Positions 8,439-37,253 of a stretch of DNA of 64,000 nt are shown piece after piece. Below the pieces are notes generated by a model. The model was not told where the DNA came from. It ran no database searches and was given only the letters and a program-made list of their open reading frames with translations. Made by a program: the position numbers and the translations under genes. Positions within the stretch are counted from its first letter, which is position 1. The number at the start of each line of letters is the position of its first letter. Origin of the DNA: Gluconacetobacter johannae (GTDB taxonomy: Bacteria > Pseudomonadota > Alphaproteobacteria > Acetobacterales > Acetobacteraceae); contig NZ_JABEQH010000005.1 in NCBI RefSeq assembly GCF_014174305.1, positions 62,001 through 126,000 on the forward strand, given 5' to 3'.

Positions 8439-9497
8439 ATGAATAATCCTGCCGGTACCCTGTTTGCCCTGCTGTCCGCTGTTCTGTTCGGTGCCAGTAC
8501 CCCACTCGCCAAGCTTCTTCTGGGTGCGGTCGACCCGTGGATGATGGCCGGGTTGCTCTATCTGGGGGCGGGCATCGGCCTGGCGGGCGTGCACTTCAGC
8601 CGGTCGATGGTCCGGTTGCCGGCGGTTGAAGCGCCCCTCCGACGGTCGGACGTGCCGTGGCTTGCACTGGTAATTCTTTCCGGTGGCATCGGCGGCCCGC
8701 TCCTGCTGATGCTTGGTCTCGCCAGAACCGATGCGGCCAGCGCCTCCCTGCTTCTGAACCTGGAGGGGTTGGCGACCATGGCGATCGCGTGGATCGGCTT
8801 TCGGGAAAATGTCGACCGGCGGCTTATGCTGGGTGCGTTTGCGATCCTGGCCGGCGCGGCGCTTCTCTCCTGGAAGGGCCAGGCGTCGCTCGATCAGGGT
8901 ACTCTGTTCATCGCCGGCGCTTGTCTATGCTGGGGTATCGACAACAACCTGACGCGCAAATTGTCGTCGGCGGATCCAGTGCAGATCGCCATGCTGAAGG
9001 GACTGGTGGCCGGCACGGTGAACCTGTCTCTGGCACTTGCGGCGGGGGCCGCCTTTCCCTCCGCCACGTCATTGCTCGCCATCGGGCTGGTCGGTTTCCT
9101 GGGGTATGGTGTCAGTCTCGTGCTGTTCGTACTGGGCCTGCGCGATCTGGGAGCCGCGCGAACCGGAGCATATTTCTCGCTGGCCCCGTTCGTCGGCGCG
9201 GTACTGGCCGTTTTCATGCTGGGGGATCACTTTTCGGCCAGGCTCCTGATCGCGGGTGGCCTGATGGGCTGGGGATTGTGGCTGCACGTGTCTGAACGGC
9301 ATGAGCACGAGCATGTCCACGACGCGCTGGAACATGAGCATCGCCACCGGCATGACGCGCACCATCAGCATGAACATGGGCCGGATGACCCACCGGGCGA
9401 GCCGCACACGCACCGGCATCAGCATCGGCCGTTGGTTCACAAGCACGCGCATTTTCCCGACTTGCACCATCGCCATGGCCATTCAGGGACGCACTGA
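8439..9497 (+). CDS. EamA/DMT family transporter with His-rich C-terminal tail
   Basis: A 352-residue drug/metabolite transporter with ten predicted membrane segments in two EamA repeats (about residues 5-135 and 150-285). Typical motifs are LFALLSAVLFGASTPLAK at the start and GACLCWGIDNNLTRKLS at the head of the second repeat. After the last helix comes a tail of about 70 residues with about two dozen histidines in His-Glu and His-Arg-His runs, a likely cytosolic or periplasmic metal-binding region. The family moves amino acids, nucleotide-sugars or amines. The tail suggests a link with nickel, zinc or cobalt, and a urease operon follows 154 bp downstream, but the substrate is not shown. The product looks complete. 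Confidence 0.85.
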   Translation: MNNPAGTLFALLSAVLFGASTPLAKLLLGAVDPWMMAGLLYLGAGIGLAGVHFSRSMVRLPAVEAPLRRSDVPWLALVILSGGIGGPLLLMLGLARTDAASASLLLNLEGLATMAIAWIGFRENVDRRLMLGAFAILAGAALLSWKGQASLDQGTLFIAGACLCWGIDNNLTRKLSSADPVQIAMLKGLVAGTVNLSLALAAGAAFPSATSLLAIGLVGFLGYGVSLVLFVLGLRDLGAARTGAYFSLAPFVGAVLAVFMLGDHFSARLLIAGGLMGWGLWLHVSERHEHEHVHDALEHEHRHRHDAHHQHEHGPDDPPGEPHTHRHQHRPLVHKHAHFPDLHHRHGHSGTH

Positions 9498-9540
9498 GCG
9501 TCGCGGCCTGCCGCGCTGGCCAAGGCCGCCTTCCTGTCTG

Positions 9541-9651: not shown

Positions 9652-11181
9652 ATGAGAACACGTCTTGCACTCATGGCCGCCGCGGCACTGGTGCTGCCCG
9701 CTCTGGCGGCCAGCCCCGTCATTGCGGCGCCACCGGCCGACTCGTCCGCCTTTCCGAAAGCGCCGCCCACCAAGCCCGGCGAGATTCCCAAATATATCGA
9801 CGCCTATACGCCGGGGATGATGAAGCTCGATCCGCTCGAGATTCCCGCCGACGTCATGACGCGCCTCAAGGACCTGCCGGCGGACAGGATCGACTTCCTC
9901 AAGAGTGGAAAGACCTCGTCCGTCATTCCCTCCAGCCAGCTCTTCCGGCAGATCCGCGAGACCTCGTCGCCCCGCGAACTGGCGGATTATGTCGATACCG
10001 TCATGACGGTCTACGGCCAGATGCAGTTCCACAAGGGGGTCGATCCGGAGACCATTCCGTTCGATACGACATCGCCGCGTTTCAATGACTGGCGCTTGCG
10101 GCGGCCGGCGGAACTGGACCCGCATCGCGAGCCGGGGCCGATCCAGACCTCGCGGTACATGCACGGCTACAACACCGGCCTGCCGACCTTTGCCGGTTCG
10201 CCGATCGCGCTGACGCCCGAGGACCTGAAGGCCGGCAAGGTGGATGTCGCCATCATGGGCGCGCCGCTGGACATGGGGTCGGGATGGCGTGACGCACAGC
10301 ACGGCCCGAACGCGATCCGCGTCATGCGCGACGGCACGGGCGGTACGGAAGTGTCCAGCATGATCGCGCCGAGCGAGGTGCTGAACATCGTCGATTACGG
10401 CAATGCGGCGGTCGACCAGAACAGCACCGAACGCAGCGTGCAGGAAGTGCGCCGGATGGTGGGCGAGATTGCCAAGGCGGGGTCGATCCCCGTCGTCATC
10501 GGCGGGGATCACAGCCTGGAATATCCGGATGTCGCGGCCATGGCGGATGTCTACGGCAAGGGTCAGGTCGGCGTCATCCATTTCGATTCCCACCTCGATA
10601 CGGGGCGGGGACGCATCCATCTGCTCGATCATGGCCAGCCGATCTACCGCGCCATGAAGGAAGGGCATATCCGCCCCGAGGACTATATCCAGGTCGGCAT
10701 CAGGGCGCATTACTCGAAGGATTATTACGAGTGGGAGCGCCTGATCGGCATGCGCTATCACACGATGGCCGAGGTCGAGAAGCATGGCTGGGACGCCGTG
10801 ATGGAGCGTGCGATCCAGGAGGCCAAGAAGAACACGAAATATCTGTGGATCTCGTTTGACGTCGATGTGCTGGATCCGGCTTTCGAGCCGGGCACGGGCA
10901 CCCCGGTCGCCGGCGGCCTGACCATGCGCGAGGCCATTCCGATCATGCGCCGGCTCTGTTCCGAGGCGAATGTCGTGGGCTTCGACATTGTCGAACTCGC
11001 CCCGGCGCTCGATCCGACCTATCGCAGCGCGCTCAACGCCAACACGATCCTCTTCAGCTGCCTGACGGGTATCGCGATGCACAAGAAGGGCATCACCCAG
11101 GCCAACTATTTCAGCCCGCTCTCCTCGGAGCATGGGCAGGACAAGTACTACGCCACGAAGGGCAAGGGAGCGAACCAGTGA
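9652..11181 (+). CDS. Exported ureohydrolase (arginase/agmatinase family), apparently active
   Basis: A 509-residue arginase-superfamily enzyme with a clear signal peptide (MRTRLALMAAAALVLPALAA, cleavage near VIAAP). About 130 residues precede the ureohydrolase core, which makes it much longer than the 300-350 residues usual for agmatinases. All metal ligands are visible: GGDHS with Asp286-His287, DSHLD (312-316), and FDVDVLDP with Asp403 and Asp405, followed by the EPGTGTP loop. The enzyme should hydrolyse a guanidino group to urea and an amine outside the cytoplasm. The substrate is unknown: agmatine, guanidinobutyrate, an alkylguanidine or guanidine itself are options. Some arginase-family guanidine hydrolases use nickel. 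It overlaps the next gene by 4 nt and heads the operon that runs into urease. Only a weak GGGG-type ribosome site precedes ATG 9652. Confidence 0.88.
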   Translation: MRTRLALMAAAALVLPALAASPVIAAPPADSSAFPKAPPTKPGEIPKYIDAYTPGMMKLDPLEIPADVMTRLKDLPADRIDFLKSGKTSSVIPSSQLFRQIRETSSPRELADYVDTVMTVYGQMQFHKGVDPETIPFDTTSPRFNDWRLRRPAELDPHREPGPIQTSRYMHGYNTGLPTFAGSPIALTPEDLKAGKVDVAIMGAPLDMGSGWRDAQHGPNAIRVMRDGTGGTEVSSMIAPSEVLNIVDYGNAAVDQNSTERSVQEVRRMVGEIAKAGSIPVVIGGDHSLEYPDVAAMADVYGKGQVGVIHFDSHLDTGRGRIHLLDHGQPIYRAMKEGHIRPEDYIQVGIRAHYSKDYYEWERLIGMRYHTMAEVEKHGWDAVMERAIQEAKKNTKYLWISFDVDVLDPAFEPGTGTPVAGGLTMREAIPIMRRLCSEANVVGFDIVELAPALDPTYRSALNANTILFSCLTGIAMHKKGITQANYFSPLSSEHGQDKYYATKGKGANQ

Positions 11182-12626
11182 GCAATCGCATGTCCTTTCG
11201 GGCCGAGCGCCGCGCCGCACTGGCGGCGCTTGCTTTCGCCACCCTGGCGCCCGCCCTGGTTCCGGCCGCTCATGCAGCGCCCGTGGCGAACGCCTCGATC
11301 GACGCGCTGACGCCCGAGCAGAAGGCGTTCGTCGCGGATTCCGCCACGTTGGAGCGCTTCGGCCTGACGCGGGAGAAGGTGGCCGAAATCCTCGCCGCCA
11401 AGGACCCGCAGGCGGCGCGCGCGACGGTGGCCGCCATGATGGCCACGATCGCGGCGGACAGGTTCCAGCCCTCGCACGGCCCAGCGGAGCCGGGGCGTTC
11501 GGCGCTGGACCCGGATGGCGACATGGCGGCGGTGCAGCTCAACCCGGCTGCCGGCGGCTTCAACAGCATGGCGGTCGTGCGTCCCCCGGCGCTGGACGCC
11601 CATCATCGCGCGCCCGGCCCGTTCAGCGTCCGGCGCTACATGTATGAATCCCAGGGCATCCCGACCTTTGCCGGCGCGCCGCTTGCGCTGCGTAAGGATG
11701 ACCTGGTGGCCGGCAAGGTGGATGTCGCGTTCGTCGGCGTGCCGCTGGGGTTCAGCAGCGGCTGGCGTGACGCGCACAATGCGCCGGGCGTCATGCGGGC
11801 CATGTACGGCCTGGGCGATTTCGACGTCTATGCCGGGGTCGATCCGGGGCTGGTGCTCAACCTCGCCGATTACGGCAATTTCGCCGTCGACAAGATGAGC
11901 GTGGAGCTGTCGGTCAACCATGTGCGCCAGATGGTGGGCGAGATGGTGGACGCGAAGGTCGTTCCCTTCGTTGTCGGCGGCGATCATTCCGTCATGATCC
12001 CGACCGTGACGGCCATGGCCGATCACTACGGGGCAGGGAATGTCGGGCTGGTGCAGATCGACGCGCATAACGATGTCGCGCGCGACCAGGCGCATTTCTA
12101 CTCGGACGAGCAGGCGCTTTCGCGCCTGATCGAAAGCGGTACGGTCAAGGGCGGCAGCGTCGTGCAGATCGGCACGCGCGGTCCGGGCCTTAGCGCGGCG
12201 GATTTCGACTGGATGAAGTCGAAGGGCATCCGTTACCACACCATGGCGCAGGTCGAGACCAGCGGCTGGCAGAGCGTGGTCGATACGACCCTGCGCGAGA
12301 TCGAGAGCGGCCCGCAGAACGTCTTCGTGTCGTTCGACATCAGCGCCCTCGACCCGGCCTACGCCTCGGGCGCGGGTCGGCCGGCGGCGAACGGCCTGAC
12401 GATGCGCGAGGCGGTGCCGCTGGTGCGGCGCATCTGCGCGGAGACGAAGGTCGTCGGTTTCGCGATGCTGGACGTGGCCCCCTATCTCGACCTCAGCTAC
12501 GCCACGGCGCTCAATGCCGACCAGATCATGAATGCCTGCCTCACCGGCATCGCGATGCGTAAGCTCGGGGTCAAGGGCGCGAACTATCACAGCGCCCTGA
12601 CGGTGGAGTCCGCCGTCGCGCATTGA
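11178..12626 (+). CDS. Exported ureohydrolase paralogue with one metal ligand replaced
   Basis: A 482-residue paralogue of the preceding protein, also with a signal peptide (LAALAFATLAPALVPAAHAAP). Shared segments such as RRYMYESQGIPTFAGAPLAL and SGWRDAHNAPGVMRAMYG show common origin. GGDHS (His270) and DAHND (Asp295, His297, Asp299) are intact. The third motif reads FDISALDP, so Asp387 is kept but the second Asp is Ser389, and the EPGTGTP loop has become ASGAGRP. Loss of a bridging carboxylate suggests weak or altered catalysis, so it may be a structural or regulatory partner of the first enzyme. The start is GTG 11178 in a GTGA overlap; ATG 11190 is an alternative closer to the signal peptide. 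Confidence 0.85.
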   Translation: MSNRMSFRAERRAALAALAFATLAPALVPAAHAAPVANASIDALTPEQKAFVADSATLERFGLTREKVAEILAAKDPQAARATVAAMMATIAADRFQPSHGPAEPGRSALDPDGDMAAVQLNPAAGGFNSMAVVRPPALDAHHRAPGPFSVRRYMYESQGIPTFAGAPLALRKDDLVAGKVDVAFVGVPLGFSSGWRDAHNAPGVMRAMYGLGDFDVYAGVDPGLVLNLADYGNFAVDKMSVELSVNHVRQMVGEMVDAKVVPFVVGGDHSVMIPTVTAMADHYGAGNVGLVQIDAHNDVARDQAHFYSDEQALSRLIESGTVKGGSVVQIGTRGPGLSAADFDWMKSKGIRYHTMAQVETSGWQSVVDTTLREIESGPQNVFVSFDISALDPAYASGAGRPAANGLTMREAVPLVRRICAETKVVGFAMLDVAPYLDLSYATALNADQIMNACLTGIAMRKLGVKGANYHSALTVESAVAH

Positions 12627-12748
12627 TTGCGCCCCGGCCCGCCCGTCGTCCGCGCCCGGACCCCATCGGTCCGGGCGTTGGCATCGGTCGCGGTGAAATG
12701 GTATCGCCTGTTTCTGCCGGATGGGCAGCATGCGAAAGAGGGGGCGTG

Positions 12749-13195
12749 ATGGGGCGGAGGATAACCGGGTACGGCCCGTTGAGACGGACGGGGGGCACGT
12801 GCCTGGTCGCGGCCGCCCTGCTGTGCGGCCAGGCTGTCGCCGCGCCACGGCCGCTGACCGTTGCGTGTTCCGGCACCACGACGGCGCGGAGCATGTCGGC
12901 CGAAAAGAGCGATCCGTTCGACGCGATCTTCGTGTTCGATGACGCGGCCCGAAGCTGGGTGCGTACCGATCCGGCCAGCGGCGCGGGGCGCCCGATCTGC
13001 CTGGCGGATGACTGCACCGTCCTGTTCAGCCCGACGCAGGTCGTCGCCCGGTCGGGGACGCTGGTGGCGACGTTCGACCGCCGGCGCCAGACCTTCAGCG
13101 CCGGGGACCTGAAGGATGTCGATGGCACCATGGTCGAGATCATTACCCGTGCAACCTGTCATGCCCCCCGCGTGCCGCCCGCCCGGCGGCCGTGA
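12749..13195 (+). CDS. Small exported protein of unknown function
   Basis: A 148-residue protein I do not recognise. It begins with a basic stretch and a hydrophobic segment (TCLVAAALLCGQAVAAP), so it is probably exported, giving a mature product of about 120 residues. The mature part has a few cysteines (including ICLADDC) and short beta-like strands, with a Pro/Arg-rich end. I start it at ATG 12749, preceded by a GAGGGGG run; the frame is open further left, but without a signal peptide position that makes sense. Its stop overlaps the GTG start of ureD by 4 nt. Placed between the exported ureohydrolases and urease, it may serve the periplasmic step, but nothing in the sequence proves that. 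Confidence 0.6.
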   Translation: MGRRITGYGPLRRTGGTCLVAAALLCGQAVAAPRPLTVACSGTTTARSMSAEKSDPFDAIFVFDDAARSWVRTDPASGAGRPICLADDCTVLFSPTQVVARSGTLVATFDRRRQTFSAGDLKDVDGTMVEIITRATCHAPRVPPARRP

Positions 13196-14043
13196 ATCTG
13201 TCGGTCGTGGACGCCGACGCGGCGCCGCTCCAGCGGGCGACCGGCGGATTCGCCATCCAGGCGAGGAAGGCGGGCGAGCGTTCGAGCCTCGTGCGGCTGC
13301 GGCAGTCGGGCTGTTGCCGTGTGCTGGTGCCGCGCGTCCGCACGCCGGGGGTCGAGGCGGTGCTGGTCAATGTTTCGGGCGGTCTGGCCGGCGGGGACCG
13401 GATCGTGGGCGGCATCCTGTGCCGGGCGGGGGCTCATCTGATCGTCACGACCCAGGCGTCCGAGCGGATCTATGGCGCGCGCGCGGCGGACCGACCGACG
13501 CGGATCGTCACCCGCTGCCGGATCGAGGCGGGGGCGCGGCTCGACTGGCTGCCCCACGAGACGATCTTCTATGACGGCGGGGTGGTGGCGCGGGACCTGA
13601 TCGTCGATATGCCGTCGGCCGCGACATTCCTGGCCAGCGAATGCCGCGTGTTCGGCCGCGTGGCGTCCGGCGAGACGGTTCAACGGCTGGTCTGCCGGGA
13701 CCGGCTGGCCATCCGGCGGGACGGCATTCCCGCGCTGATGGAGAATTTTCGGGCGGACGGCCCGTTCGGGGCCCTGCTGTCGCGGCGCGCCGTCGCGTCG
13801 GGCGCGGGGGTGATGCATACCATCACGATGGCGGCGCCCGACGTGGCGCGCTGGCTGGAGGAGGCCAGGGCGTGCATCGCCGGAGCGGGACCCGCCGTCG
13901 CGGGGGCGGCATCGGCCTGGAATGACGTGCTGGTCGTGCGATTGCTGGGGAATGAAGCTATGAACGTCCGGCAGTTGGCCCGCCGCATCACGGCGCTGTT
14001 GCGCGGGGGGTATCCGGCCCCGGTGACATGGCGTCTTCAATAA
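13192..14043 (+). CDS. ureD: Urease accessory protein UreD
   Basis: A 283-residue UreD (UreH) protein, the scaffold that binds apo-urease and recruits UreF and UreG for nickel insertion. Family segments are visible: [13 protein letters not shown] near residue 60, [25 protein letters not shown] and [13 protein letters not shown]. Translation probably starts at GTG 13192, overlapping the previous stop (GTGA), which implies coupling. It leads the conventional order ureDABCEFG. Length and motifs are normal. Confidence 0.95.
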
Positions 14044-14062
14044 GGCGGTTTGGAGGGGAAGG

Positions 14063-14365
14063 ATGAAGCTGACTCCGCGCGAGAAGGACAAGCTGCTGGT
14101 CGCGATGGCGGCGAACGTGGCCCGACGGCGGCTGGAGCGCGGGGTACGCCTGAATTATCCCGAGGCGGTCGCGCTGATTACTGATTATGTTGTGGAAGGC
14201 GCGCGTGACGGCCTCAGCGTGGCCGACCTGATGGAAGGGGGCGCGCGCGTGCTGGCCCGTGACCAGGTCATGGCGGGCATTGCGGAGATGATCCCGGACG
14301 TGCAGGTCGAGGCGACCTTTCCCGATGGCACGAAGCTGGTGACGGTCCATGACCCGATTCGCTGA
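14063..14365 (+). CDS. ureA: Urease gamma subunit
   Basis: The 100-residue gamma subunit of cytoplasmic urease. It opens [20 protein letters not shown] and contains [21 protein letters not shown] and [22 protein letters not shown], all standard. A strong GGAGGGGAAGG sequence precedes ATG 14063. The end overlaps ureB by 17 nt. The subunits are separate (gamma, beta, alpha), as in most bacteria. Confidence 0.97.
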
Positions 14366-14690
14366 CGCCCTGCCCGCGGGGGCCGTCCCCGGCGAGATCA
14401 TCACCCCGGACGGCGAGATCGAACTCAATGCCGGCCGGCCGCGCCGGACGCTGCGCGTCACCAATACCGGCGACCGGCCGATCCAGGTGGGCAGCCATTA
14501 CCATTTCGCCGAGACCAACCCCGCGCTGGCCTTCGACCGCGCGCAGGCGCGGGGGTGGCGGCTGGACGTGCCGTCGGGCGGCGCGCTGCGCTTCGAGCCG
14601 GGACAGGCGATGGATGTCACACTGGTGCCGCTGTCGGGCGGGCGCCGGGTGGTGGGTTTCCGTGCCCAGGTGATGGGGGAACTGGACTGA
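14349..14690 (+). CDS. ureB: Urease beta subunit
   Basis: The 113-residue beta subunit of urease. Characteristic segments are [40 protein letters not shown] and the terminal [18 protein letters not shown]. The ATG at 14349 lies inside the end of ureA and the stop overlaps the ureC start by one base (TGATG), so the three structural genes are translationally coupled. Length is usual for the family. Confidence 0.97.
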
Positions 14691-16396
14691 TGGCCCGGAT
14701 CGGACGCTTCGACTACGCCATGACCTACGGCCCGACGACCGGCGACCGGGTCCGCCTTGCGGACACCGCCCTGCTGGTTGAGGTGGAGCGGGATTTCACC
14801 GTCCAGGGCGAGGAGGTGAAGTTCGGGGGCGGCAAGACCATCCGCGACGGGATGGGGCAATCCCAGGTCACCAATGCGGCGGGGGCCGCCGACACGGTCA
14901 TCACCAATGCGCTGATTATCGACCACTGGGGGATCGTGAAGGCCGATATCGCCCTGAAGGGCGGGCGGATCGCCGGCATCGGCAAGGCGGGCAATCCCGA
15001 CATCCAGCCGGGCGTGGACATCATCATCGGTCCGGGCACCGAAATCGTGGCCGGGGAAGGCCGGATCGTCACCGCCGGCGGCATCGACGCGCATATCCAC
15101 TATATCTGCCCCCAGCAGGTGGAGGAGGCGCTGGCGTCGGGCGTCACCACCCTGCTGGGCGGCGGCACCGGCCCGGCGACGGGCACGGCGGCGACGACCT
15201 GCACGCCCGGCCCGTGGCATCTGGCGCGGATGCTCCAGGCGGCGGAGGGGCTGCCGGTCAACCTGGCCTTCGCGGGCAAGGGCAACGCCTCGCGCCCCGA
15301 GGCGCTGGAGGAGATGGTACGCGCGGGGGCCTGCTGCCTCAAGCTGCATGAGGACTGGGGGTCGACGCCCGCCGCCATCGACTGCTGCCTGTCGGTCGCC
15401 GACCGGATGGACGTGCAGGTCATGATCCATACGGACACGCTGAACGAGAGCGGCTTCGTGGATGACACCATCGCCGCGTTCCAGGGCCGGACCATCCATG
15501 CCTTCCATACGGAAGGCGCGGGCGGCGGCCATGCGCCGGACATCATCCGGGTGGCGGCGCTGCCCAACGTGCTGCCGTCCTCGACCAATCCCACGCGGCC
15601 CTACACCATCAACACGCTCGACGAGCATCTGGACATGCTGATGGTCTGCCATCACCTGGACCGCAGCGTGCCCGAGGATATCGCGTTTGCGGAGAGCCGC
15701 ATCCGGCGCGAGACGATCGCCGCCGAGGATATCTTCCACGACATGGGCGTGCTGTCGATGATGTCGTCGGACAGCCAGGCGATGGGACGGGTGGGCGAGG
15801 TCATCATCCGCACCTGGCAGACCGCCCACAAGATGAAGCTGCAGCGCGGGGCGCTGGCCGGCGACGGCGCGGCCGACAACAGCCGCGTGAAGCGCTATAT
15901 CGCCAAATACACGATCAATCCGGCCATTGCCCACGGCCTGGCGCGCGAGGTCGGTTCGATCGAGGTCGGCAAGCTGGCCGACCTGGTGCTGTGGGAGCCG
16001 GCCTTCTTCGGCGTGAAGCCGGAACTGGTCATAAAGGGGGGCGCGATCGTGTACGCGCTGATGGGTGACCCCAACGCCTCGATCCCCACGCCGCAGCCCA
16101 TCCACGGGCGGCCGATGTTCGGCAGCCTGGGCGGCGCGCTGAGCGCGACCTGTGTCACCTTCGTCTCCGGCGCCGCGCTGGAGGACGATATCGGGACGCG
16201 GCTGGGGCTGAAGCGCCGCCTGGCGGCGGTGTCCGACACGCGCGGCGGCATCGGCAAGCGCAGCATGATCCATAACGACGCCATGCCCGTGATCGAGGTC
16301 GATCCCGAAACCTACGAGGTGCGCGCCGACGGCGTGCTTCTGACCTGCGAACCTGCCGAGGTACTGCCCATGGCACAGCGTTATTTCCTGTTCTGA
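14690..16396 (+). CDS. ureC: Urease alpha (catalytic) subunit
   Basis: The 568-residue catalytic subunit, which hydrolyses urea to ammonia and carbamate at a dinickel centre. Nickel ligands and active-site parts are visible: HIH (His135, His137), the lysine that is carbamylated (Lys218 in CLKLHEDWG), the [11 protein letters not shown] and [13 protein letters not shown] segments, the flap MVCHHLDRS with the catalytic histidine, and Asp361 in [12 protein letters not shown]. The start at ATG 14690 gives the normal [21 protein letters not shown] opening. The reading frame is open further upstream but overlaps ureB there. It is very well conserved and should be functional. Confidence 0.98.
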
Positions 16397-16929
16397 TGCG
16401 GCGCGTCGTCGATATCCTTCCCGCCGGGACGTGGGAGCCTGCGCGCGAGAGCGACCTGTTTCGCGCCGATTACGAGGGCCGTCATCGCCGCCGCAAGGTG
16501 CTGGAGCTGCAATCGGGCGCGCGGGTGCTGCTCGACCTGCCGCAGGCGCGGCTGCTGGTCGCGGGCGACGGGCTGCTGCTGGACGATGGCGGGGTGGCGC
16601 GGGTCGCGGCGCTGGATGAATCGCTGCTGGAGGTCACGGCGCCGGATGGGCATGGGCTGCTGCGCCTGGCCTGGCATCTGGGCAACCGCCACCTGCCGGC
16701 GATGATCGAGCCTACGCGGATCCTGATCCGCGATGACCATGTGATTGCCGACATGGTGCGCGGGCTGGGCGGGACCATCGCACCGCTGCGGGCGCCGTTC
16801 GATCCGGAAACCGGAGCCTATGCCGGCCATGGGGGCGGCCACGACGCGCATGGGCACGACCCTCATGCCCATGGGCATCACGACCACGACCATCATGACC
16901 ATGGGCACGGCCCGCATCCCCATTCCTGA
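16396..16929 (+). CDS. ureE: Urease accessory protein UreE, nickel chaperone
   Basis: A 177-residue UreE, which delivers nickel to the UreDFG complex. The N-terminal part has the usual peptide-binding fold (ARESDLFRADYEGRHRRRKV) and the metal-binding domain contains LAWHLGNRHLPAMIE and GLGGTIAPLRAPFDPETGAY. The tail is very rich in histidine (DAHGHDPHAHGHHDHDHHD and similar), giving capacity for extra nickel. The start ATG overlaps the ureC stop by one base. Confidence 0.95.
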   Translation: MRRVVDILPAGTWEPARESDLFRADYEGRHRRRKVLELQSGARVLLDLPQARLLVAGDGLLLDDGGVARVAALDESLLEVTAPDGHGLLRLAWHLGNRHLPAMIEPTRILIRDDHVIADMVRGLGGTIAPLRAPFDPETGAYAGHGGGHDAHGHDPHAHGHHDHDHHDHGHGPHPHS

Positions 16930-17599
16930 CCTGCCGGTGGACGATGCGACGCTCGCGCGGCTGCTGAACTGGCTGTCGCCCGCCTTTCCCACCGGGGGGT
17001 TCGCCTACAGCCACGGTCTGGAATGGGCCGTCCAGGCCGGGGACGTCACGGATGTGGCGACGCTGGTGGACTGGATCGGCGATCTGCTGTCCTGCGGCAG
17101 CCTGCGTAACGACCTGATCCTTGTCCGCGCCGCCTGGCAGGCGCGCGACGGAGCGGCGCTGGTGTCGCTGACCCGGATCGGCTGCGCGCTGGCCTCGTCG
17201 CGGGAGCGGTGGGAGGAAACGACGCGCCAGGGCGAGGCGTTCCTGCGCGGTGTCGCGGTCTGGGGGGTGGAGATTGCCGGACGCGGCACGCCGGGTGTCG
17301 CCTGGCCGCTGCCGGTGGCGCATGGAGCGGCCCTGGGCGCCTGCGGGGCCGGGGAACACCATACGCTGGTCGCCAGTGCCAGCGCCGTGACGGCGGGGCT
17401 GGTCTCGGCGGCGGTCCGGCTGGTGCCGCTGGGGCAGACCGACGCGCTGCGCGCGCTGGCGGCGCTCGAGCGGCCGATCGCGGCGGCCGTTGCCGCGACG
17501 CAGGGGCAGGGTATCGCCGATCTGGGCGGGCTGTGCTTTCGCGCGGATCTGGCGGCCATGCATCACGAAACACAGGAAACGAGGCTTTTTCGCACATGA
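16901..17599 (+). CDS. ureF: Urease accessory protein UreF
   Basis: A 232-residue UreF. With UreD and UreG it forms the preactivation complex on apo-urease and gates GTP-dependent nickel loading. Family signatures are [24 protein letters not shown] near the N-terminus and [27 protein letters not shown] later. I use ATG 16901, which lies within the His-rich end of ureE (overlap 29 nt). ATG 16895 is an equal choice, and no clear ribosome site separates them. The true family homology begins about ten residues after the start. The stop overlaps the ureG start. Confidence 0.93.
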
Positions 17600-18219
17600 C
17601 GGACAGCTATCGCGGCCCGCTCCGCGTCGGAATCGGTGGCCCCGTGGGGACGGGCAAGACGGCGCTGATGGATGCGCTGTGTCGCCATTTCCGCGATCGC
17701 TACGACATCGCGGCCCTGACCAATGACATCTATACCCGCGAGGATGCGGAATTCCTGACGCGGGCGGGTTCGCTGCCGCCCGAGCGGATCATGGGAATCG
17801 AGACCGGCGGGTGCCCCCATACCGCGATCCGCGAGGATGCGAGCATCAACCTGGCGGGGATCGAGGAACTGTGCGCGCGTTTTCCGGTGCTGGACCTGGT
17901 GCTTGTGGAAAGCGGCGGGGACAATCTGGCCGCGACCTTCAGCCCCGAACTGGCCGACCTGACGATCTATGTCATCGACGTTTCGGCGGGCGACAAGATC
18001 CCCCGCAAGGGCGGGCCGGGCATCACCCGCAGCGACCTCCTGGTCATCAACAAGATCGACCTCGCGCCCCATGTGGGGGCCGACCTGGGGGTGATGGATC
18101 GTGACAGCCGCCGGATGCGCGGCCAGCGGCCCTTCGTCTTCGCCAATATCCGCGCGGGCGAGGGGGTGGAGCGCATTGCCCGCTTCATTATCGAGGAAGG
18201 CGGCCTGCGCGTCGCCTGA
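17596..18219 (+). CDS. ureG: Urease accessory GTPase UreG
   Basis: A 207-residue UreG (SIMIBI-class GTPase) that powers nickel transfer to urease. The P-loop [11 protein letters not shown] lies at residues 13-23, followed by [31 protein letters not shown] (metal-binding Cys-Pro-His), [14 protein letters not shown] and the guanine-specificity motif NKIDL. ATG 17596 overlaps the ureF stop (ATGA). It is the last urease gene, followed after 20 nt by a strong hairpin. Confidence 0.97.
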
Positions 18220-18293: not shown

Positions 18294-20801
18294 TCAGAAG
18301 TGGATATGTCCTTCCATGCCGAAGGTGCGCGGGGTCAGCATGCCATAGGCATAGTACCGTTCCACCACGCCGTCGCGTGAGCGCACCGAGCCGTAATCGT
18401 TGCTGACGGCGGTGACGGCGTACTGGTCGAAGATGTTGTTGATGAAGAAATCCAGGCTCCATTTCTTCGTGTTGTACGTGACCGACGCGCGATGGGTGAC
18501 GTAGCTGGGGATCTTCTCGCCATAGCCGCGCAGGCCGACATGCGAATAGATGCTGCCGTTATAAGTCGTGGCCCAGTTGACGACGATGTTGCGTTCGTTC
18601 TTGAGCGGGATGACGTAATTGGCGATGAGGCTGCCCGAATTCTTCATCGAGCCCGGCAGGCGGTCGCCGGCATAGGCGGTGTAGAGGCCGTTCACCAGGT
18701 CCGGCGTGGTCCGGGTCAGGTGCGCGTCGGTATAGGAATAGGTCGCGGTCAGCGAGAAGTTCGGCGTGACCTTCCAGCTTGCGGTGGCGTCGAAGCCCTG
18801 CGAGACGGCCTGCGCGCCGTTGGCGGTGATGCCGACATTGCCGTATTTCGTGCGGCTGGGCACCTGTACGTCGAGCCAGTCGATATGGAAGCCCGCGAGC
18901 GTCATCATGACCCGGTGATGGAAGAAGTTGGCGCGGATGCCCAGTTCTTCGTTGCGGGTCCGGTCCGGCTGGAAGCTCATCTCGTTCGGCAGGGCGCAGG
19001 CATGCTGCGAGCTGGGATCGACGGGCAGCGTGCAAGGGGCGACGCGGTTGACGCCGCCGACGCGATAGCCGGTGCTGTAGGTGAAATAGGCCATGACGTT
19101 GGGGTTGAAGCGATAGGAAATGTTCGCCTTCCAGATGACGCCGTCCGCGCCCGTCGCACCGCGCTGCTCGTTGTAGCTGACGCCGGGATAGGCCTGGAAC
19201 AGCGGCAGGGCCGTGCCGCCGTCGACCGTGGCGTCATAATTGAAATAACGGATGCCGCCGGTGACCTGCAGGTTTTTCAGAAGATGCAGGGTGCCTTCGC
19301 CATAGACGGCCTTCTCGGTCGTCGTAGTGTAGACGAACGACGCGTATTCCAGCTCGTCCGGACGGTCGTAGCCGGCCCATTCCGAATAGCCCGGCACGTA
19401 TTCCTGACGCAGATAGGACGTCTTGAGCTGGTTGTAGAAGCCGCCGACCACCCAGTTGAACGGCCCCTTGTGCGTGGAGACCAGGCGCAGTTCCTCGTTG
19501 AACTGGCGGTACTTGCGCTGGTTATTCGCGTAGGACGAGAAGTTCGGGAAAGCCTGGTAGCCGTAATCGAGGTCGATCAGAAGGTCGGTGTTGTCTTCGG
19601 TCTGGTGGATATTCTGTTGCGTGTAGGCCGTCGTGCTGACGATCTGCATGATGCCGGGAATGTTGAAATTGAGTTCGCCGCTGTACAGATCGGACGTGCG
19701 GTCGACCGGCTCGAGATAGCGCCACGGCCCCTCGTCATGGCCTGTGCCCATCACGCCCGCGCCGTTGGCCTGCTGGCCGGCGGTCTTCGTTTCCTGATGC
19801 GCGTACGTCAGGTACGCCTTGATGTTGGGGTTGAGCTGCAGCAGGAGCTGGTTGCGCGTCGTGAAGGTGTGGTCGTAGTTGACGTCCTTGTAGCGGTTGA
19901 AATTCTCGCGCTGCTGGGCGGGCGTGCCGAAGGATTCATTGCCCGGCTGCGGGCTGGAAACCCCCGGATCCTTCAGCACATGGTTGTAATCGATCCAGCC
20001 CGGATCGTTGTAGTAGCCGATGACCGTGCGGAAGGCGATGTGATCCTTCAGGATCGGGATATTGAATGTCCCGTTGATCTCGCCGCCCGGATCGCTGCTG
20101 TGCGCCATGCCGAAGGTCTTGCCGTCGATGTCCGCGGACCATTTTTCGGTGTCCGGCCGGTTGGGCATGTAGCGGACGGCGCCGGCCAGCGTGCCGAGAC
20201 CATACAGCGTGCCCTGCGGACCCTGCAGCACTTCGACACGGTTGATGTCGATCAGCTTGAAGTCGGTATAGAGCGGGACCTCGCCCAGATAGACGCCGAC
20301 GGCATTGTTGCTGAAATTGCCGGTCGTGCTGGTGTTGCCCGAGGACAGGCCACGCATGATGATGTTGCCGGCGTTGCCCGGGCCGGTGTCGGTGACGGTC
20401 AGGCCGGGCACGAAGGCGCTGAACTGCTTGATGTCGGTGATGCGCTCGGCCTGGAGCGTCTTGTTGTCGAGCACCGAGATATTGATCGGCGAATCCTCAA
20501 GCCGCGTGCGGCGGCGCGTGGCGGTGACGTACACCTGTTCGGGCCCGGCCGCGGGCGCGTTCGTCGCCGTGGGGCGTGCGGCCGCCGCTGTCGGGCCGGT
20601 CGCGGATGCCGTCTGGGTCATGGCCGGGGCGGCGGCGACTTTCGGCGTGGCGGCTTTCTTGCCTGCTCCCTGACGCGCCTTGGCCGGGGCCACATCGGCG
20701 GCATCGGCCGGCGACGCCGCGATGATGAGCCCCATCGGGGCGCAGTTCATCAGGATCGTGGCGCAAAGCAGCCTGGTTCTTTTCGCCGAAAGGCCTTTCA
20801 T
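18294..20801 (-). CDS. TonB-dependent outer-membrane receptor
   Basis: An 835-residue TonB-dependent receptor. After a signal peptide (ATILMNCAPMGLIIAASPADAA) comes an Ala/Pro-rich linker, then the TonB box-like EQVYVTATRRRTRLEDSPINI. The plug domain carries RGLSSGNTSTTGNF and VEVLQGPQGTLYG, and the 22-strand barrel ends in GMEGHIHF with a terminal Phe. The barrel resembles the large group of IroN/CirA-like and pesticin-type receptors that take up siderophores, sugars or other solutes, so the ligand cannot be assigned. It is divergent from a permease-type sensor kinase, and a copy of the shared 18-bp element lies in the 292-bp gap, 116 nt from its start. It may admit the substrate of the guanidine/amine pathway; that is inference. 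Confidence 0.93.
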   Translation of the reverse strand: MKGLSAKRTRLLCATILMNCAPMGLIIAASPADAADVAPAKARQGAGKKAATPKVAAAPAMTQTASATGPTAAAARPTATNAPAAGPEQVYVTATRRRTRLEDSPINISVLDNKTLQAERITDIKQFSAFVPGLTVTDTGPGNAGNIIMRGLSSGNTSTTGNFSNNAVGVYLGEVPLYTDFKLIDINRVEVLQGPQGTLYGLGTLAGAVRYMPNRPDTEKWSADIDGKTFGMAHSSDPGGEINGTFNIPILKDHIAFRTVIGYYNDPGWIDYNHVLKDPGVSSPQPGNESFGTPAQQRENFNRYKDVNYDHTFTTRNQLLLQLNPNIKAYLTYAHQETKTAGQQANGAGVMGTGHDEGPWRYLEPVDRTSDLYSGELNFNIPGIMQIVSTTAYTQQNIHQTEDNTDLLIDLDYGYQAFPNFSSYANNQRKYRQFNEELRLVSTHKGPFNWVVGGFYNQLKTSYLRQEYVPGYSEWAGYDRPDELEYASFVYTTTTEKAVYGEGTLHLLKNLQVTGGIRYFNYDATVDGGTALPLFQAYPGVSYNEQRGATGADGVIWKANISYRFNPNVMAYFTYSTGYRVGGVNRVAPCTLPVDPSSQHACALPNEMSFQPDRTRNEELGIRANFFHHRVMMTLAGFHIDWLDVQVPSRTKYGNVGITANGAQAVSQGFDATASWKVTPNFSLTATYSYTDAHLTRTTPDLVNGLYTAYAGDRLPGSMKNSGSLIANYVIPLKNERNIVVNWATTYNGSIYSHVGLRGYGEKIPSYVTHRASVTYNTKKWSLDFFINNIFDQYAVTAVSNDYGSVRSRDGVVERYYAYGMLTPRTFGMEGHIHF

Positions 20802-21093: not shown

Positions 21094-24000
21094 ATGAGCG
21101 GTCCGGTCCAGCCGGAGCGCCGGACGTACAACCAGTGGGTCAATACCCAGACGCTGGAGGATTACGCGCTGCGCCATACCGCGTCGCGCGGGCGGCGGTG
21201 GAGCCACTGGACGATCGCCAACACCGCGCTCGGGGCCGCCAGCTTCCTTGCCTGCGAGGCGATCGGCGGGACGATCACGCTGCAGTTCGGATTCGTCAAC
21301 GCAATGACGGCCATCCTGGCCGCGACGGTGATCTTTCTGGTGATCGGTGCGCCGATCGCCATCTGCGCCGCCCGCGAGGGGCTGGATGTGGACCTGCTGA
21401 CGCGCGGCGCGGGGTTCGGCTATCTGGGGTCCACGGTGACCTCGCTGATCTATGCCAGCTTCACTTTCCTGCTGTTCGCGGTCGAGGCGAGCATCATGGC
21501 GTTCGCCATCGGCCTGGCGACTGGGCTGCCGGTCTCGCTCGCCTATGTCGTCAGCGCGCTCGGCGTGGTGCCCATCGCGCTGTACGGCATGAAGGCCATT
21601 ACCCGGATGCAGCTTGTGACGCAGCCGATATGGCTGGTCCTGCAGTTCGGTCCGCTGGCCTGGGTCCTGATGTCCGAGCCGGCGGCGGTTGCGGCCTGGG
21701 CGCATGCACAGGGCGTGCTGGATGGCGGCGGGAGCGGAAACCTCATCCTGTTCGGCCTGGCTCTTTCGACCATCCTGTCACTTCTGCCGCAGATCGGCGA
21801 ACAGGCGGACTATCTGCGCTTCCTCCGCCGGCCGTCGCGGGGCGGGGACCTGCGATGGTGGGCGGCCGTGCTGTCGGGCGGGCCGGGATGGGGGGTGATC
21901 GGCGGGCTGAAGCTGGCGGCCGGCTCGTTTCTGGCGGTGTTCGCGCTGGCCCATCATGTCGGCCTGGCCCAGGCCGACAGCCCGCCCGCGATGTATGCGG
22001 TCATGTTCGGCGAGGTGACAGGCCGGCCGGATGTCGCGCTGGCCCTGATGCTGGTCTTTGTCGTGGCCTGCCAGATGAAGATCAACGTGACCAATGTCTA
22101 TGCGGGGTCGATCGCCTGGTCGAACTTCTTCGCGCGGCTGACGCACGCCCATCCCGGCCGCGTGGTGTGGCTGGTGTTCAACGCGGTGCTCGCCCTGCTG
22201 ATAATGGAGGCGGGGATCCTGCGTACGATGTCCACGCTGCTGGCCCTGTACGCGAATCTCGCTTCCGGCTGGATCGGCGCCCTGTCGGCCGACCTCATGG
22301 TCTCGAAGCCGCTGGGCCTGAGCCCCAGGGGCGTGGAATTCCGCCGGGCCTATCTGTACGACGTGAACCCGGTGGGGGTGGGGGCGATGGCGCTGTCCCT
22401 CGTCACCTCCTCCTCGGCCCTGACCGGGGTGCTGGGCGAGACCGCGCAGGCGTTCGCGCCGCTGCTGGGGTTGACCGTGGCGTTCGTTTCGGCGCCCGCG
22501 ATCGCCCTGGCCACCCGCGGACGCTTCTATATCGCCCGTCCGCCCGAGGCCTATGCGTCGGACCTGCGCTGCACGGTGTGCGACATCGTCTACGAACCGG
22601 CGGACATCGTGTCCTGCCCGTTCCATCGCGGGGCGGTGTGCTCGCTGTGCTGCACGTTGGAAAGCCGCTGCCACGACCAGTGCAAGGACAACAGCGACAT
22701 CGTCCAGCAGGCCCGCGACCTGCTGCGCCGCGTGCTTCCCAGCGAGGCGGGGCGCTATCTCGACGGCAGCGTGGCGCATTTCCTTGTCATCATGCTGGGC
22801 TTCAACGCCATTCTCGGCGTCGTGTTCTACTGGGTCACGTTCGGCGAGGGCGCGTCCGGCGCGTTGCGGCGGGACCTGGAGCAGATCTTCGTGGCGCTGG
22901 AGGTTCCGGCGGGGATCGTGGCGTGGCTGTTCGTTCTGGCGCATAACAGCCGGCGCACGGCCGAGCGCGAGACGCGGCAGCAGACCGCCATGCTGCGCCA
23001 GGAGGTCGCGGCCCACATCCTGACGGATGCGGCGCTGCAGAAGGCGCGGGACGCGGCGGAGGCCGCCAATGCGGCCAAGACCCGCTACCTGGTGGCCGTC
23101 AGCCACGAGATCCGCTCGCCGCTGAATGCGATCTACGGCTACGCGCAGCTTCTCGAACGCGGGGGCGCGGTGGCCCCGGTCGAGGTCGGCGGGGTGATCC
23201 GCCAGTCCGCCGAGCATCTGACGAACCTGGTGGAGGGGCTTCTCGATATCTCGCGGGTCGAGAGCGGAGTGGTGGAGGTGCGCTCGGATATCGTCCCGAT
23301 CCGGGCCCTGCTGCATCATCTGGTGGCGATGTTCCGCATGCAGGCGGCGGCCAAGGGGCTGACGCTGGACCTGGTCATTCATGACCGCCTGCCGTCGCAT
23401 GTGAAGACGGACGAGAAGCGGTTCCGGCAGATCGTGATTAACCTGCTGTCCAACGCCGTGAAATATACCCGGCAGGGGGGTGCGACCGTATCGGTCCGAT
23501 ATCGCAGCGAGGTCGCCCGGATCGAGATTTCCGATACCGGCACAGGGATTCATCCGGAGGACCTCGAGCGGATCTTCGAGCCGTTCGAGCGTGGCCGGCA
23601 GGCGGAGGTCCACCCCCAGCCGGGCATAGGGCTGGGGCTGTCCATCACGCGTGTCCTGACGCGGATCCTGGGTGGCGACATCACGGCCGAGAGCACGCCG
23701 GGCGTGGGCAGCACCTTCCGGCTGTCCCTGATGCTTCCGGCCGTCCATCAGGTGGGCGGCACCGCGTCCAGCGACAGGATCGTCGGCTATCAGGGGGTGC
23801 GGCGCCAGGTGGTGGTGGTCGATGACGACCTGCGCCAGCACGGCTTTCTGGACGGGCTTCTCACCCCGCTCGGCTTTCAGGTGCATGACGCGTCCAGCGG
23901 GGCGGAGGCGCTGGACCTGGTGGCCCGCCTGTCGCCCGACCTGGTGCTGCTGGATATCCAGATGCCCGGCGACAATGGATGGATCATCGCGTCGCGGCTT

Positions 24001-24408
24001 CGCGCGCTGGCCGGCTCGGGGCTTCGCATCGTGATGGTGTCGGCGAACGCGGCGGAATTCAGCACCGGGGCGGATGGGCTGGCCGTGCACGATGGTTTCG
24101 TGACAAAACCGGTGGATGTCGATGTGCTTCTGGGTATGATCGGGCGTGTGCTGGCATTGCAATGGACATATGCCGAGGCGCCGGAGCCCGCGACGGCGAT
24201 GCCTGGCGCCTCGCCCGGACTGCGGCAGCAGCTGGGCGAGCTGCGCCGGGCGGCGCGTATGGGCCATGTCCGCGCGGCCGAGGCATTGACTGCGGAACTG
24301 GTGGCCGGGACCGACGGCGACAGGGCCTTCATTGCCGTCCTCAAGGAGCATCTGGAGCGTTTCGACCTGCGGAGCGTAGGGAGGATCATCGACGATGCGG
24401 AGTCCTGA
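21094..24408 (+). CDS. NCS1 permease-histidine kinase-receiver fusion (transporter-type sensor)
   Basis: A 1104-residue fusion. Residues about 1-470 are an NCS1 (purine/cytosine permease type) transporter domain with about twelve helices; RRWSHWTIANTALGAASFLA is a family-like start. Residues 490-530 form a cysteine-rich knot (CTVC, C508, C516, CC519-520, C526, C530) that may bind metal. Two further hydrophobic segments follow (about 555-612). The histidine kinase has the H-box VSHEIRSPLNAIYGY with His671, an N-box NLLSNAVKYTRQG and G-boxes DTGTGI and GIGLGLS. A receiver domain follows with phospho-acceptor Asp954 in LLDIQMPG. A helical tail completes it. Such fusions let a transport domain sense its ligand, as in CbrA-type kinases. 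Its end overlaps the response regulator gene by 14 nt, so they are partners. The ligand could be a guanidino compound, urea or an amine. Confidence 0.9.
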   Translation: MSGPVQPERRTYNQWVNTQTLEDYALRHTASRGRRWSHWTIANTALGAASFLACEAIGGTITLQFGFVNAMTAILAATVIFLVIGAPIAICAAREGLDVDLLTRGAGFGYLGSTVTSLIYASFTFLLFAVEASIMAFAIGLATGLPVSLAYVVSALGVVPIALYGMKAITRMQLVTQPIWLVLQFGPLAWVLMSEPAAVAAWAHAQGVLDGGGSGNLILFGLALSTILSLLPQIGEQADYLRFLRRPSRGGDLRWWAAVLSGGPGWGVIGGLKLAAGSFLAVFALAHHVGLAQADSPPAMYAVMFGEVTGRPDVALALMLVFVVACQMKINVTNVYAGSIAWSNFFARLTHAHPGRVVWLVFNAVLALLIMEAGILRTMSTLLALYANLASGWIGALSADLMVSKPLGLSPRGVEFRRAYLYDVNPVGVGAMALSLVTSSSALTGVLGETAQAFAPLLGLTVAFVSAPAIALATRGRFYIARPPEAYASDLRCTVCDIVYEPADIVSCPFHRGAVCSLCCTLESRCHDQCKDNSDIVQQARDLLRRVLPSEAGRYLDGSVAHFLVIMLGFNAILGVVFYWVTFGEGASGALRRDLEQIFVALEVPAGIVAWLFVLAHNSRRTAERETRQQTAMLRQEVAAHILTDAALQKARDAAEAANAAKTRYLVAVSHEIRSPLNAIYGYAQLLERGGAVAPVEVGGVIRQSAEHLTNLVEGLLDISRVESGVVEVRSDIVPIRALLHHLVAMFRMQAAAKGLTLDLVIHDRLPSHVKTDEKRFRQIVINLLSNAVKYTRQGGATVSVRYRSEVARIEISDTGTGIHPEDLERIFEPFERGRQAEVHPQPGIGLGLSITRVLTRILGGDITAESTPGVGSTFRLSLMLPAVHQVGGTASSDRIVGYQGVRRQVVVVDDDLRQHGFLDGLLTPLGFQVHDASSGAEALDLVARLSPDLVLLDIQMPGDNGWIIASRLRALAGSGLRIVMVSANAAEFSTGADGLAVHDGFVTKPVDVDVLLGMIGRVLALQWTYAEAPEPATAMPGASPGLRQQLGELRRAARMGHVRAAEALTAELVAGTDGDRAFIAVLKEHLERFDLRSVGRIIDDAES

Positions 24409-25321
24409 CAGGCTGTTGGACGCGGATCGCCCGTGCGTGCTCGTGGTGGATGACACGCCCCAGTCCCTGCGTTTCGTGACCACCGCGCTGGAGGCCGAAG
24501 GCATGACGGTGCTGATCGCGCCGGACGGTCATGCCACGCTGGAACTGCTGCAGGACGTGGTTCCCGACCTGATCCTCATGGACGCGATGATGCCGGGGAT
24601 GGACGGGTTCGAGACCACGCGGCGCATCAAGAAGGATCCGGCGCTCAGCCATGTGCCGGTCATTTTCATGACCGGCCTGACCGAGACGGAACATGTCGTG
24701 CGCGGGCTGGAGGCCGGCGGGGTGGATTATGTCCACAAGCCCGTGGTGGTGGATGAGCTGATCGCGCGGGTGCGGGTGCATCTGCGTAACGCGCGCGCCG
24801 CGCGGGCCAGCCATCAGGCCCTCGATTTCGGGCGTCGTCCGACGATCGGGGTCAGCGCGGCGGGGGTGCTGCGGTGGCACACGCCGGAAGCGGCGGCGGC
24901 GCTGTCGAGCTGCTTTCCACAGTGGCAGGTCGATGATCGCCTGCCTGAGCCGCTCTGCGACGTGCTGGTCGACCTGGGGACGCAGCGGCCGCTTGTCGTG
25001 CGCCGGACGCTGGATGTCGCCGAAGGCCGGCTGGAATGCGTTGTCGTCGGCACGATGGATGACGGTTCGATGTGCGTCACGCTGCTGCTCAGGCGACCGG
25101 GCGAGGAGGAACGGCTGCTGGGGCGTCGGCACAACCTGACCACGCGCGAAGCGGAGGTCCTGCTCTGGATCAGCCGGGGCAAGCCCAACCGCGATGTCAG
25201 CGAGATCCTGAATATCAGCCCGCGTACGGTGAACAAGCATCTGGAGCAGATTTTCGCGAAGCTGGGCGTCGAGAACCGCGCCTCGGCCGCCGCGATCGCC
25301 GTCACGACGCTGAATGAATGA
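24395..25321 (+). CDS. LuxR-family response regulator, partner of permease-kinase
   Basis: A 308-residue response regulator. The N-terminal receiver (about 10-130) has the acidic pair DD in VLVVDDTPQSL, the acceptor Asp in LILMDAMMPGMDG and the conserved Lys in VDYVHKPV. A middle region of about 80 residues is not a familiar domain. The C-terminal helix-turn-helix is of LuxR/NarL type (LTTREAEVLLWISRG, ILNISPRTVNKHLEQIFAKLGV). It starts inside the end of the kinase gene, so production is coupled. The likely targets are the genes carrying the 18-bp element at 9541, 20918 and 25345; that is inference. Confidence 0.93.
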   Translation: MRSPDRLLDADRPCVLVVDDTPQSLRFVTTALEAEGMTVLIAPDGHATLELLQDVVPDLILMDAMMPGMDGFETTRRIKKDPALSHVPVIFMTGLTETEHVVRGLEAGGVDYVHKPVVVDELIARVRVHLRNARAARASHQALDFGRRPTIGVSAAGVLRWHTPEAAAALSSCFPQWQVDDRLPEPLCDVLVDLGTQRPLVVRRTLDVAEGRLECVVVGTMDDGSMCVTLLLRRPGEEERLLGRRHNLTTREAEVLLWISRGKPNRDVSEILNISPRTVNKHLEQIFAKLGVENRASAAAIAVTTLNE

Positions 25322-25362: not shown

Positions 25363-25456
25363 TAGTGACGCCCCGGGCGCGGGACAGTGATGATGCCGGA
25401 ACATTCCCCACGGGACGCGCCGGCCGCCTCCCGCCATGTCATCATCGGAGAGCGCC

Positions 25457-26638: not shown

Positions 26639-26647
26639 GGCGGGGCG

Positions 26648-27169: not shown

Positions 27170-27170
27170 C

Positions 27171-27770: not shown

Positions 27771-27817
27771 GGGACGGCAGGGCAACACGACACCCGCGTC
27801 AGGGGGAGATCTTCACG

Positions 27818-32315: not shown

Positions 32316-32419
32316 CGCGCTTCACGTCGGCGGGAAGGGCGACATCTACGCCAGATTGCGTATGGCCAATCCAACGCGGATACGGGACGAATGGCGCCAT
32401 GTCAGAAGGAATGGACGAC

Positions 32420-37242: not shown

Positions 37243-37253
37243 GGGACATCGGC

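Follow-up and report, generated by a model that had tools for sequence, protein, structure and literature searches.

Ureohydrolase pairs composed of an active and a dead subunit have a precedent in the metformin/dimethylguanidine hydrolase which, according to excerpts of two reports (PMC11399263, PMC11271267), is an alpha2beta4 hexamer with metal bound by alpha alone and no activity of either subunit by itself. Most pairs of the MetCaCb clade are located near nickel chaperone genes, and members of the MetCb clade have three to five of the six ligands changed (excerpts of PMC11271267). Because another tandem arrangement, seemingly evolved independently, was described for Limnocylindrales (excerpts of PMC11399263), dual ureohydrolase genes are not new as such. 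We analysed a stretch of 64,000 nucleotides from Gluconacetobacter johannae (contig NZ_JABEQH010000005.1, positions 62,001 to 126,000; "the window" below), in which two genes, A and B, encode ureohydrolases with export-type N-termini. Like MefH alpha/beta, MetCaCb and MfmAB (PDB 8RYI, 8X3G, 8SNF), these are tandem genes for an intact and a degenerate subunit of the arginase fold. Our favoured reading, to which we give a probability of about 0.62, is that A and B would form a Sec-exported hetero-oligomer, with A as the catalytic and B as a non-catalytic partner, in an island for the catabolism of guanidino compounds.

The two genes overlap by 4 nt and are positioned just 5' of ureD, with a single small open reading frame (ORF) in between. 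Both products scored above the curated cut-off of the Pfam Arginase profile (PF00491; 259 bits for A and 183 for B, cut-off 22), and the tandem ureohydrolase ORFs of the original prediction are thereby established. B is a member of the ureohydrolase family by descent, not a canonical enzyme. A and B stayed under all five NCBIfam cut-offs listed for them, including those of the agmatinase models TIGR01230 (A 155.2, B 118.3; cut-off 174.3) and NF002564 (A 203.8, B 125.1; cut-off 302). The two proteins are 45% identical over 365 alignment positions (335 bits, blastp), and their N-terminal extensions are homologous, the profile-profile alignment (hhalign) running from A residue 63 onward. AlphaFold2 models had a mean pLDDT of 80.8 for A and 74.2 for B, and the extension of A was modelled as helices at about residues 66-124. 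Top fold matches of the models include guanidinopropionase, agmatinase, guanidinobutyrase, guanidinase and metformin hydrolase, the best being guanidinopropionase 3NIP, guanidinobutyrase 3NIO and agmatinase 7LBA. These last three are single-gene enzymes with chains of about 305-330 residues and no exported N-terminal domain. The host genome (3.63 Mb, 49 contigs) encodes four PF00491 proteins: A, B and two located elsewhere. Over 11.6 kb, the stretch with A, B and urease shares 94.7% identity with a Gluconacetobacter azotocaptans contig.

All six metal ligands are present in A (H287, D312, H314, D316, D403, D405), as had been proposed. B has five of six, Ser389 being aligned to A D405, where the family has Asp. 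This substitution, the one singled out in the original prediction, is real but incomplete as a description of the site, because B is changed also at the 'HG' His (A H327, B Asp310) and at the Glu of the substrate site (A E448, B Asp432), two changes that had gone unmentioned. The EPGTGTP loop was thought to be lost from B; the motif is indeed gone, but it is replaced by ASGAGRP, not deleted.

Relatives were collected by one scan of a species-genome collection, with a query profile made from three active-type proteins and two peptide patterns. The scan yielded 111 stretches with a relative, and the best 80 of these represent 71 distinct loci; together with a Novosphingobium plasmid stretch (L008) and the window, they make up 73 sequence sets, most of them from sphingomonads, acetic-acid bacteria and gammaproteobacteria. 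Among plasmid records, 504 matched B and 654 matched A; L008 alone had at least 80% of the query covered at one place. From 143 profile hits in the 73 sets, 134 were retained (more than 400 bits and more than 350 aa), then 130 after removal of four with identical C-terminal 300 residues; for alignment, ORFs above 600 aa were trimmed to their last 520 residues. The excluded rows were mostly contig-end pieces, weak relatives and a broken third ureohydrolase gene of a Sphingobium (L020:12629-14178), which is split into two overlapping ORFs and is intact in relatives. The family is rare: B was matched at E ≤ 1e-40 in one other of 150 family genomes (a 37% relative), and A at E ≤ 1e-75 in one other of 385 class genomes and in no further one of 299 phylum genomes.

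Proteins with Asp405 and His327 (A numbering) were classed as active-type and those with Ser405 as B-type. No row was left unclassified, and the 130 distinct relatives were divided into 93 active-type and 37 B-type proteins. Beside the class-defining His327 and Asp405, H287, D312, H314, D316, D403, E448 and Thr417 were found in 93/93 active-type proteins. In the B-type, residue 327 was Asp in 37/37, residue 417 was Arg in 36/37 (Gln once) and residue 448 was Asp in 36/37 (Gly once). When both classes were thinned to less than 80% identity (23 B, 56 active), 4 of 330 columns (residues 150-479) were fixed at 95% or more to different residues between classes, namely 327, 405, 417 and 448, each an active-site position. 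The class definition itself fixes column 405 and the active state of column 327, but it does not dictate what the B-type has at 327 or what either class has at 417 and 448. The changes in B are a coordinated multi-residue replacement, beyond a one-residue oddity. Among the other ligands, H314 and D403 were kept in 37/37 B-type proteins, and those at 287, 312 and 316 in 30, 24 and 20 of the 37. The earlier statement that B keeps its remaining ligands is correct for window B but for only 10/37 B-type proteins in all. Unlike the MetCb clade, as portrayed in the excerpted report, the B-type has one or more ligands changed and a fixed Asp/Ser/Arg/Asp signature.

In 37/37 cases B has an active-type gene beside it, in the same orientation. 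When 23 whole genomes were searched with a B profile, 17 of them contained B-class hits, 19 in total, all at about 596 bits or higher (the next hit scored 567). Each of the 19 had another family member on its own strand no more than about 250 nt away; 18 were at residue-classified loci, the remaining one being confirmed by a residue check. Other arrangements of the family were seen as well. In L039, L045, L050, L066 and L071, tandem exported ureohydrolases both have all site residues and there is no B; Komagataeibacter swingsii (L013, L032) has two separate A/B pairs, and the Pseudohongiella loci (L049, L059, L064) have active-B-active or active-B-active-B arrays.

A maximum-likelihood tree of 84 rows put all 24 rows of B on one side of a single branch (support 100/99). 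The B-linked active rows formed one clade of 25 with support 88/79, under the level counted as strong; two of these rows are without B in the sequence examined, and two sub-clades mirror those of B. Rooting with three cytoplasmic outgroups, by a quick method and with long outgroup branches, placed B within the active rows. On these trees, B is one clade derived from active exported ureohydrolases. Three loci (L034, L036, L037) belong to a metagenome bin labelled Marinimicrobia; their ureohydrolases cluster with alphaproteobacterial ones, and mis-binning is possible. Distances in A and B were correlated over the 26 of 37 pairs left after thinning (Mantel r 0.923, 0/9999 permutations as high, shared host ancestry uncorrected), and B distances were larger than A distances in 325/325 comparisons. 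Against two relatives, dN/dS was 0.06 both times for A, and 0.069 and 0.105 for B. B is under purifying selection.

The signal peptides and N-terminal extensions claimed for both proteins were borne out: by a hydrophobicity heuristic, A and B have an uncharged hydrophobic N-terminal segment following basic residues, ahead of the homologous extensions that are helical in the A model. Such a stretch precedes the N-domain in 124/130 proteins, including 37/37 B, and in the six missed by the heuristic it was found on the uncut ORFs. As a control, we ran this rule on the N-terminal 75 residues of the linked urease proteins; it was positive for UreC in 0/17, UreG in 0/21, UreE in 1/19 and UreA in 6/21. 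A twin-arginine motif was present in 1/130 proteins and a lipobox-like string in 15/130 (10 B, 5 active), so that some family members may be lipoproteins. The N-termini point to the Sec route, from which we infer folding and metal loading in the periplasm. Predicted export would set A and B apart from metformin hydrolase; the words 'signal peptide' and 'periplasm' are absent from the main texts of PMC11399263 and PMC11271267.

B scored 73 bits against MfmB and A 79 bits against MfmA (phmmer), versus 335 bits between A and B; these scores, taken by themselves and not from a tree with MfmAB, suggest that the A/B pairing arose independently of metformin hydrolase. GdmH and the comammox guanidinase (7ESR, 9FEK) resemble A in arginase fold and metal ligands, and 7ESR is its best PDB sequence match (145 bits). 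GdmH is a homohexamer, unlike the proposed A/B heteromer. Its guanidine-specific residues are Thr97 and Trp305 (excerpt of PMC11410670), and their equivalents are missing in A, which has Gly211 and Thr417 in an alignment that assumes a 2-residue offset in PDB-chain numbering.

Features of the window in the region of genes A and B (positions in the window).
Feature	Position	Strand	Remarks
Gene A	9652-11181	+	509 aa; predicted exported active-type ureohydrolase; Sec-type N-terminus; helical N-domain at about 66-124; metal and catalytic residues complete
Gene B	11178-12626	+	482 aa; GTG start; putative exported pseudo-ureohydrolase subunit; signature Asp310, Ser389, Arg401, Asp432
Small ORF	12623-13195	+	possible signal segment on visual inspection; without Pfam match
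Urease operon ureD, A, B, C, E, F, G	13192-18219	+	the genome's only urease alpha gene
TonB-dependent receptor	18294-20801	-	homologue near ureohydrolases in 29/72 other sets
Hybrid histidine kinase	21094-24408	+	N-terminal domain of about 480 residues without Pfam or PDB match
Response regulator, LuxR-type HTH	24395-25321	+	
Tryptophan tryptophylquinone (TTQ)-type amine dehydrogenase genes	25436-28369	+	heavy chain 25436-26638, MauE 26648-27169, MauD-like 27171-27770, light chain 27818-28369
ORF with c-type cytochrome candidate	28147-28890	+	weak, under Pfam cut-off; true start probably near 28366
PpiC-type peptidyl-prolyl isomerase (foldase)	28887-29708	+	N-terminal membrane anchor by eye
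HupE/UreJ_2 membrane protein	29692-30741	+	sole member in the genome
TPR-sulfotransferase	30228-32315	+	gene start downstream of the ORF start, as domain matches begin only at residue 281 of the ORF
Urea ABC transporter UrtABCDE	32399-37949	+	UrtA over NCBIfam cut-off; the rest by Pfam domain and order
Molybdopterin-binding aldehyde/xanthine-oxidase-type large subunit	37843-40089	+	no NCBIfam cut-off reached

The genes that surround the pair are listed in the table. The order heavy chain-E-D-light chain is mau-like, as in methylamine dehydrogenase (MADH) and aromatic amine dehydrogenase clusters. In the MADH equivalog tests, the light chain passed (209.4, cut-off 196.85) and MauD missed (187.5, cut-off 188.6); among PDB entries, the heavy chain matched MADH (122 bits) better than aromatic amine dehydrogenase (85 bits). 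By these scores the genes would encode a TTQ-type enzyme that the cut-offs do not assign to MADH. The N-terminal domain of the kinase is 56-63% identical to its homologues in the nine other loci aligned, and could possibly be a sensor of urea or of a guanidino compound. An NCS1-permease identity, considered for this domain, was dropped: the window protein had no Pfam match and a profile of 10 homologues no PDB match, both at E up to 5, and other members gave weak, unrelated Pfam matches (best E 0.13). Among the 72 other sets, an ORF similar to the small one downstream of B was found in the G. azotocaptans and K. swingsii loci only. Upstream of A, at 8439-9497, there is an EamA/DMT transporter with a very His-rich C-terminal tail. 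It was rejected as the metal transporter of the system, as homology with G. azotocaptans begins only at 9534 and no DMT homologue was found in the 72 other sets (blastp). Rfam scans of the window and of six other loci gave no guanidine riboswitch and hit nothing but 5_ureB_sRNA, antisense to urease genes. The match at 14839-15128 (-), antisense to ureC, and those in L017 and L049 probably reflect conserved urease coding sequence.

Neighbours were counted in the 72 other sets by blastp (E ≤ 1e-10) against the proteins of the window and of L008. The foldase was found in 39 sets, HupE in 33, the TonB receptor in 29, urease in 22, the LuxR regulator in 19, the kinase and the molybdenum enzyme in 18 each, Urt in 13 and MADH in three, and 13 sets had none of the listed neighbours. 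The TPR-sulfotransferase, which in the window adjoins HupE and is near the TonB receptor, has homologues in 22. With the window included, urease or Urt genes occur in 29/73 sets and the molybdenum enzyme in 19/73. Amine dehydrogenases are of two kinds, the quinohemoprotein amine dehydrogenase (QHNDH) in 14/73 sets and the MADH-type in 4/73, never together. In these 14 sets (L013, L018-L028, L030, L031), qhpA, D, B, G and F, as in QHNDH clusters, stand beside exported ureohydrolases; qhpA starts 82-136 nt past the last ureohydrolase in 13 of them and is upstream in the fourteenth (L013). QhpD and QhpA were over their NCBIfam cut-offs, and qhpA exceeded its own in just 5/289 class genomes. TTQ and cysteine tryptophylquinone (CTQ) chemistry and the periplasmic location of these enzymes are established, and QHNDH is known to act on larger primary amines. 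That one slot is filled by two non-homologous amine dehydrogenases is the strongest hint that an amine would be made or used there. For the known MADH and QHNDH clusters, such a link to ureohydrolases did not turn up in the open-licence PMC literature searched, and neither did an exported ureohydrolase.

A's intact site, B's fixed changes, the constant pairing, the export-type N-termini and the neighbourhood can all be read in the DNA. From them we infer complex formation, catalysis, metal, substrate and order of steps. A and B would be secreted via Sec into the periplasm and assembled there into a hetero-oligomeric ureohydrolase, in which A, with a binuclear metal site, would convert a substituted guanidino compound into urea and an amine, and B would assist as a non-catalytic partner for the assembly, the stability or the substrate channel of A. 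Urea would be imported by UrtABCDE for hydrolysis by the linked urease. In the periplasm, a quinoprotein amine dehydrogenase would oxidise the amine, or a guanidino-amine at its amine end, and the molybdenum enzyme would oxidise the resulting aldehyde. Compatible substrates are agmatine-like guanidino-amines, alkylguanidines and guanidino acids alike. Methylguanidine, which MADH together with urease might have indicated, is weakened as a candidate by the presence of QHNDH in place of MADH at other loci and by a heavy chain that stays under the MADH cut-off. The metal could be Mn or Ni: the nearby HupE/UreJ and urease hint at nickel, yet they also serve urease itself. The metformin hydrolase operon likewise has a nickel transporter, hupE, in the excerpted reports. 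Unlike the MetCaCb pairs described there near nickel chaperone genes, the window has no hypA, the genome's one HypA being on another contig (hypB was not searched).

Several observations weigh against this scheme. The adjacency of A and B is partly ascertained, since loci were collected via an A-type profile and the best 80 of 111 were kept, and the whole-genome control covers 23 genomes. The TTQ heavy chain reached 145.6 bits for a MADH cut-off of 454.45, and no MauG-family gene is present in the window; the genome has three, none on the window's contig. QhpB and QhpG representatives are under their NCBIfam cut-offs, and the 14 sets with QHNDH represent about four named genera, Sphingobium predominating. 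No amine dehydrogenase was found in 19/35 B-bearing sets, and 27/73 sets lack urease, Urt, amine dehydrogenase and molybdenum enzyme in the sequence examined, in which many contigs are short. Counts for large families (TonB, regulators, ABC) may include non-orthologues.

For B itself, the role of a non-catalytic subunit in an A/B hetero-oligomer is most likely. The hetero-oligomer had been put forward in the original prediction, together with a new activity as an alternative, and it now has indirect support in the constant adjacency, the single origin, the co-divergence, the purifying selection and the metformin hydrolase precedent (excerpts of PMC11399263, PMC11271267). The new activity has become less likely, the catalytic His, one metal ligand and the substrate Glu being all changed. 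That B would be catalytic alone, with a different chemistry or metal arrangement, fits its modelled arginase fold and the five of six ligands in window B, but the catalytic His and substrate Glu are replaced in 37/37 B-type proteins, more ligands are changed in 27/37, and an intact paralogue is always beside it; we regard this as very improbable. Since four site residues were switched together, the reversal of Ser389 to Asp is not a fair test, and alone it should not revive B. Slightly less improbable, though still poorly probable, is that A and B do not interact and that B is a duplicate heading for loss. Its larger distances in 325/325 comparisons would agree with this, but a dN/dS of 0.07-0.105, a single clade with a fixed signature, retention in many genera and co-divergence with A would not. 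A regulatory B deserves more credit, while being unlikely: the rebuilt pocket (Asp/Ser/Arg/Asp with the retained His and Asp) might bind a metabolite or a single metal and tune A. The pocket is strictly conserved, not decayed, so that this role keeps some probability. The four switched positions are the sole class-fixed columns of 330 in the thinned sets, H314 and D403 are kept in 37/37, and such a uniform new residue set is not expected from simple decay. However, the same residues could equally be a structural salt-bridge cluster, and three further metal ligands (287, 312, 316) drift in B.

The order of steps can also be turned around in a way compatible with the A/B heteromer. Agmatine or another guanidino-amine would be oxidised first in the periplasm, to the guanidino-aldehyde and acid, and A/B would act last, as a guanidino-acid hydrolase of the guanidinobutyrase type. 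The linkage of amine dehydrogenase and molybdenum oxidoreductase in the window and other loci would suit this order, as would the best solved match of B, a guanidinobutyrase, and the best fold match of A, a guanidinopropionase; but step order is not readable from sequence and these matches are just 29-32% identical, so we hold it as a tentative alternative. A more speculative extension of the favoured hetero-oligomer, which we find doubtful as a whole, starts from B Arg401 (A position 417). It is aligned to GdmH Trp305, a residue that sets guanidine specificity, and with the conserved Asp432 and Asp310 this led us to the idea that its guanidinium might plug the old substrate site against these two Asp. 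B might then be a self-occupied, metal-independent lock in a substrate-bound-like state, holding A active, in an undescribed periplasmic guanidino pathway built on an A/B pair independent of metformin hydrolase.

Paired ureohydrolases with a dead subunit were known before; exported pairs were not found in the literature searched. If the favoured reading is true, the design of an enzyme with a pseudo-enzyme would have evolved more than once among ureohydrolases, here for extracytoplasmic work, and the Sec-exported protein should be beyond loading by cytoplasmic nickel chaperones. Since urine, plants and drugs commonly contain guanidino compounds, substrate screening would be a direct test. The locus suggests a so far undescribed route of nutrient use on the outer side of the inner membrane, which would strip urea and ammonia from guanidino compounds in the periplasm and in which two unrelated quinoprotein amine dehydrogenases would occupy one slot.

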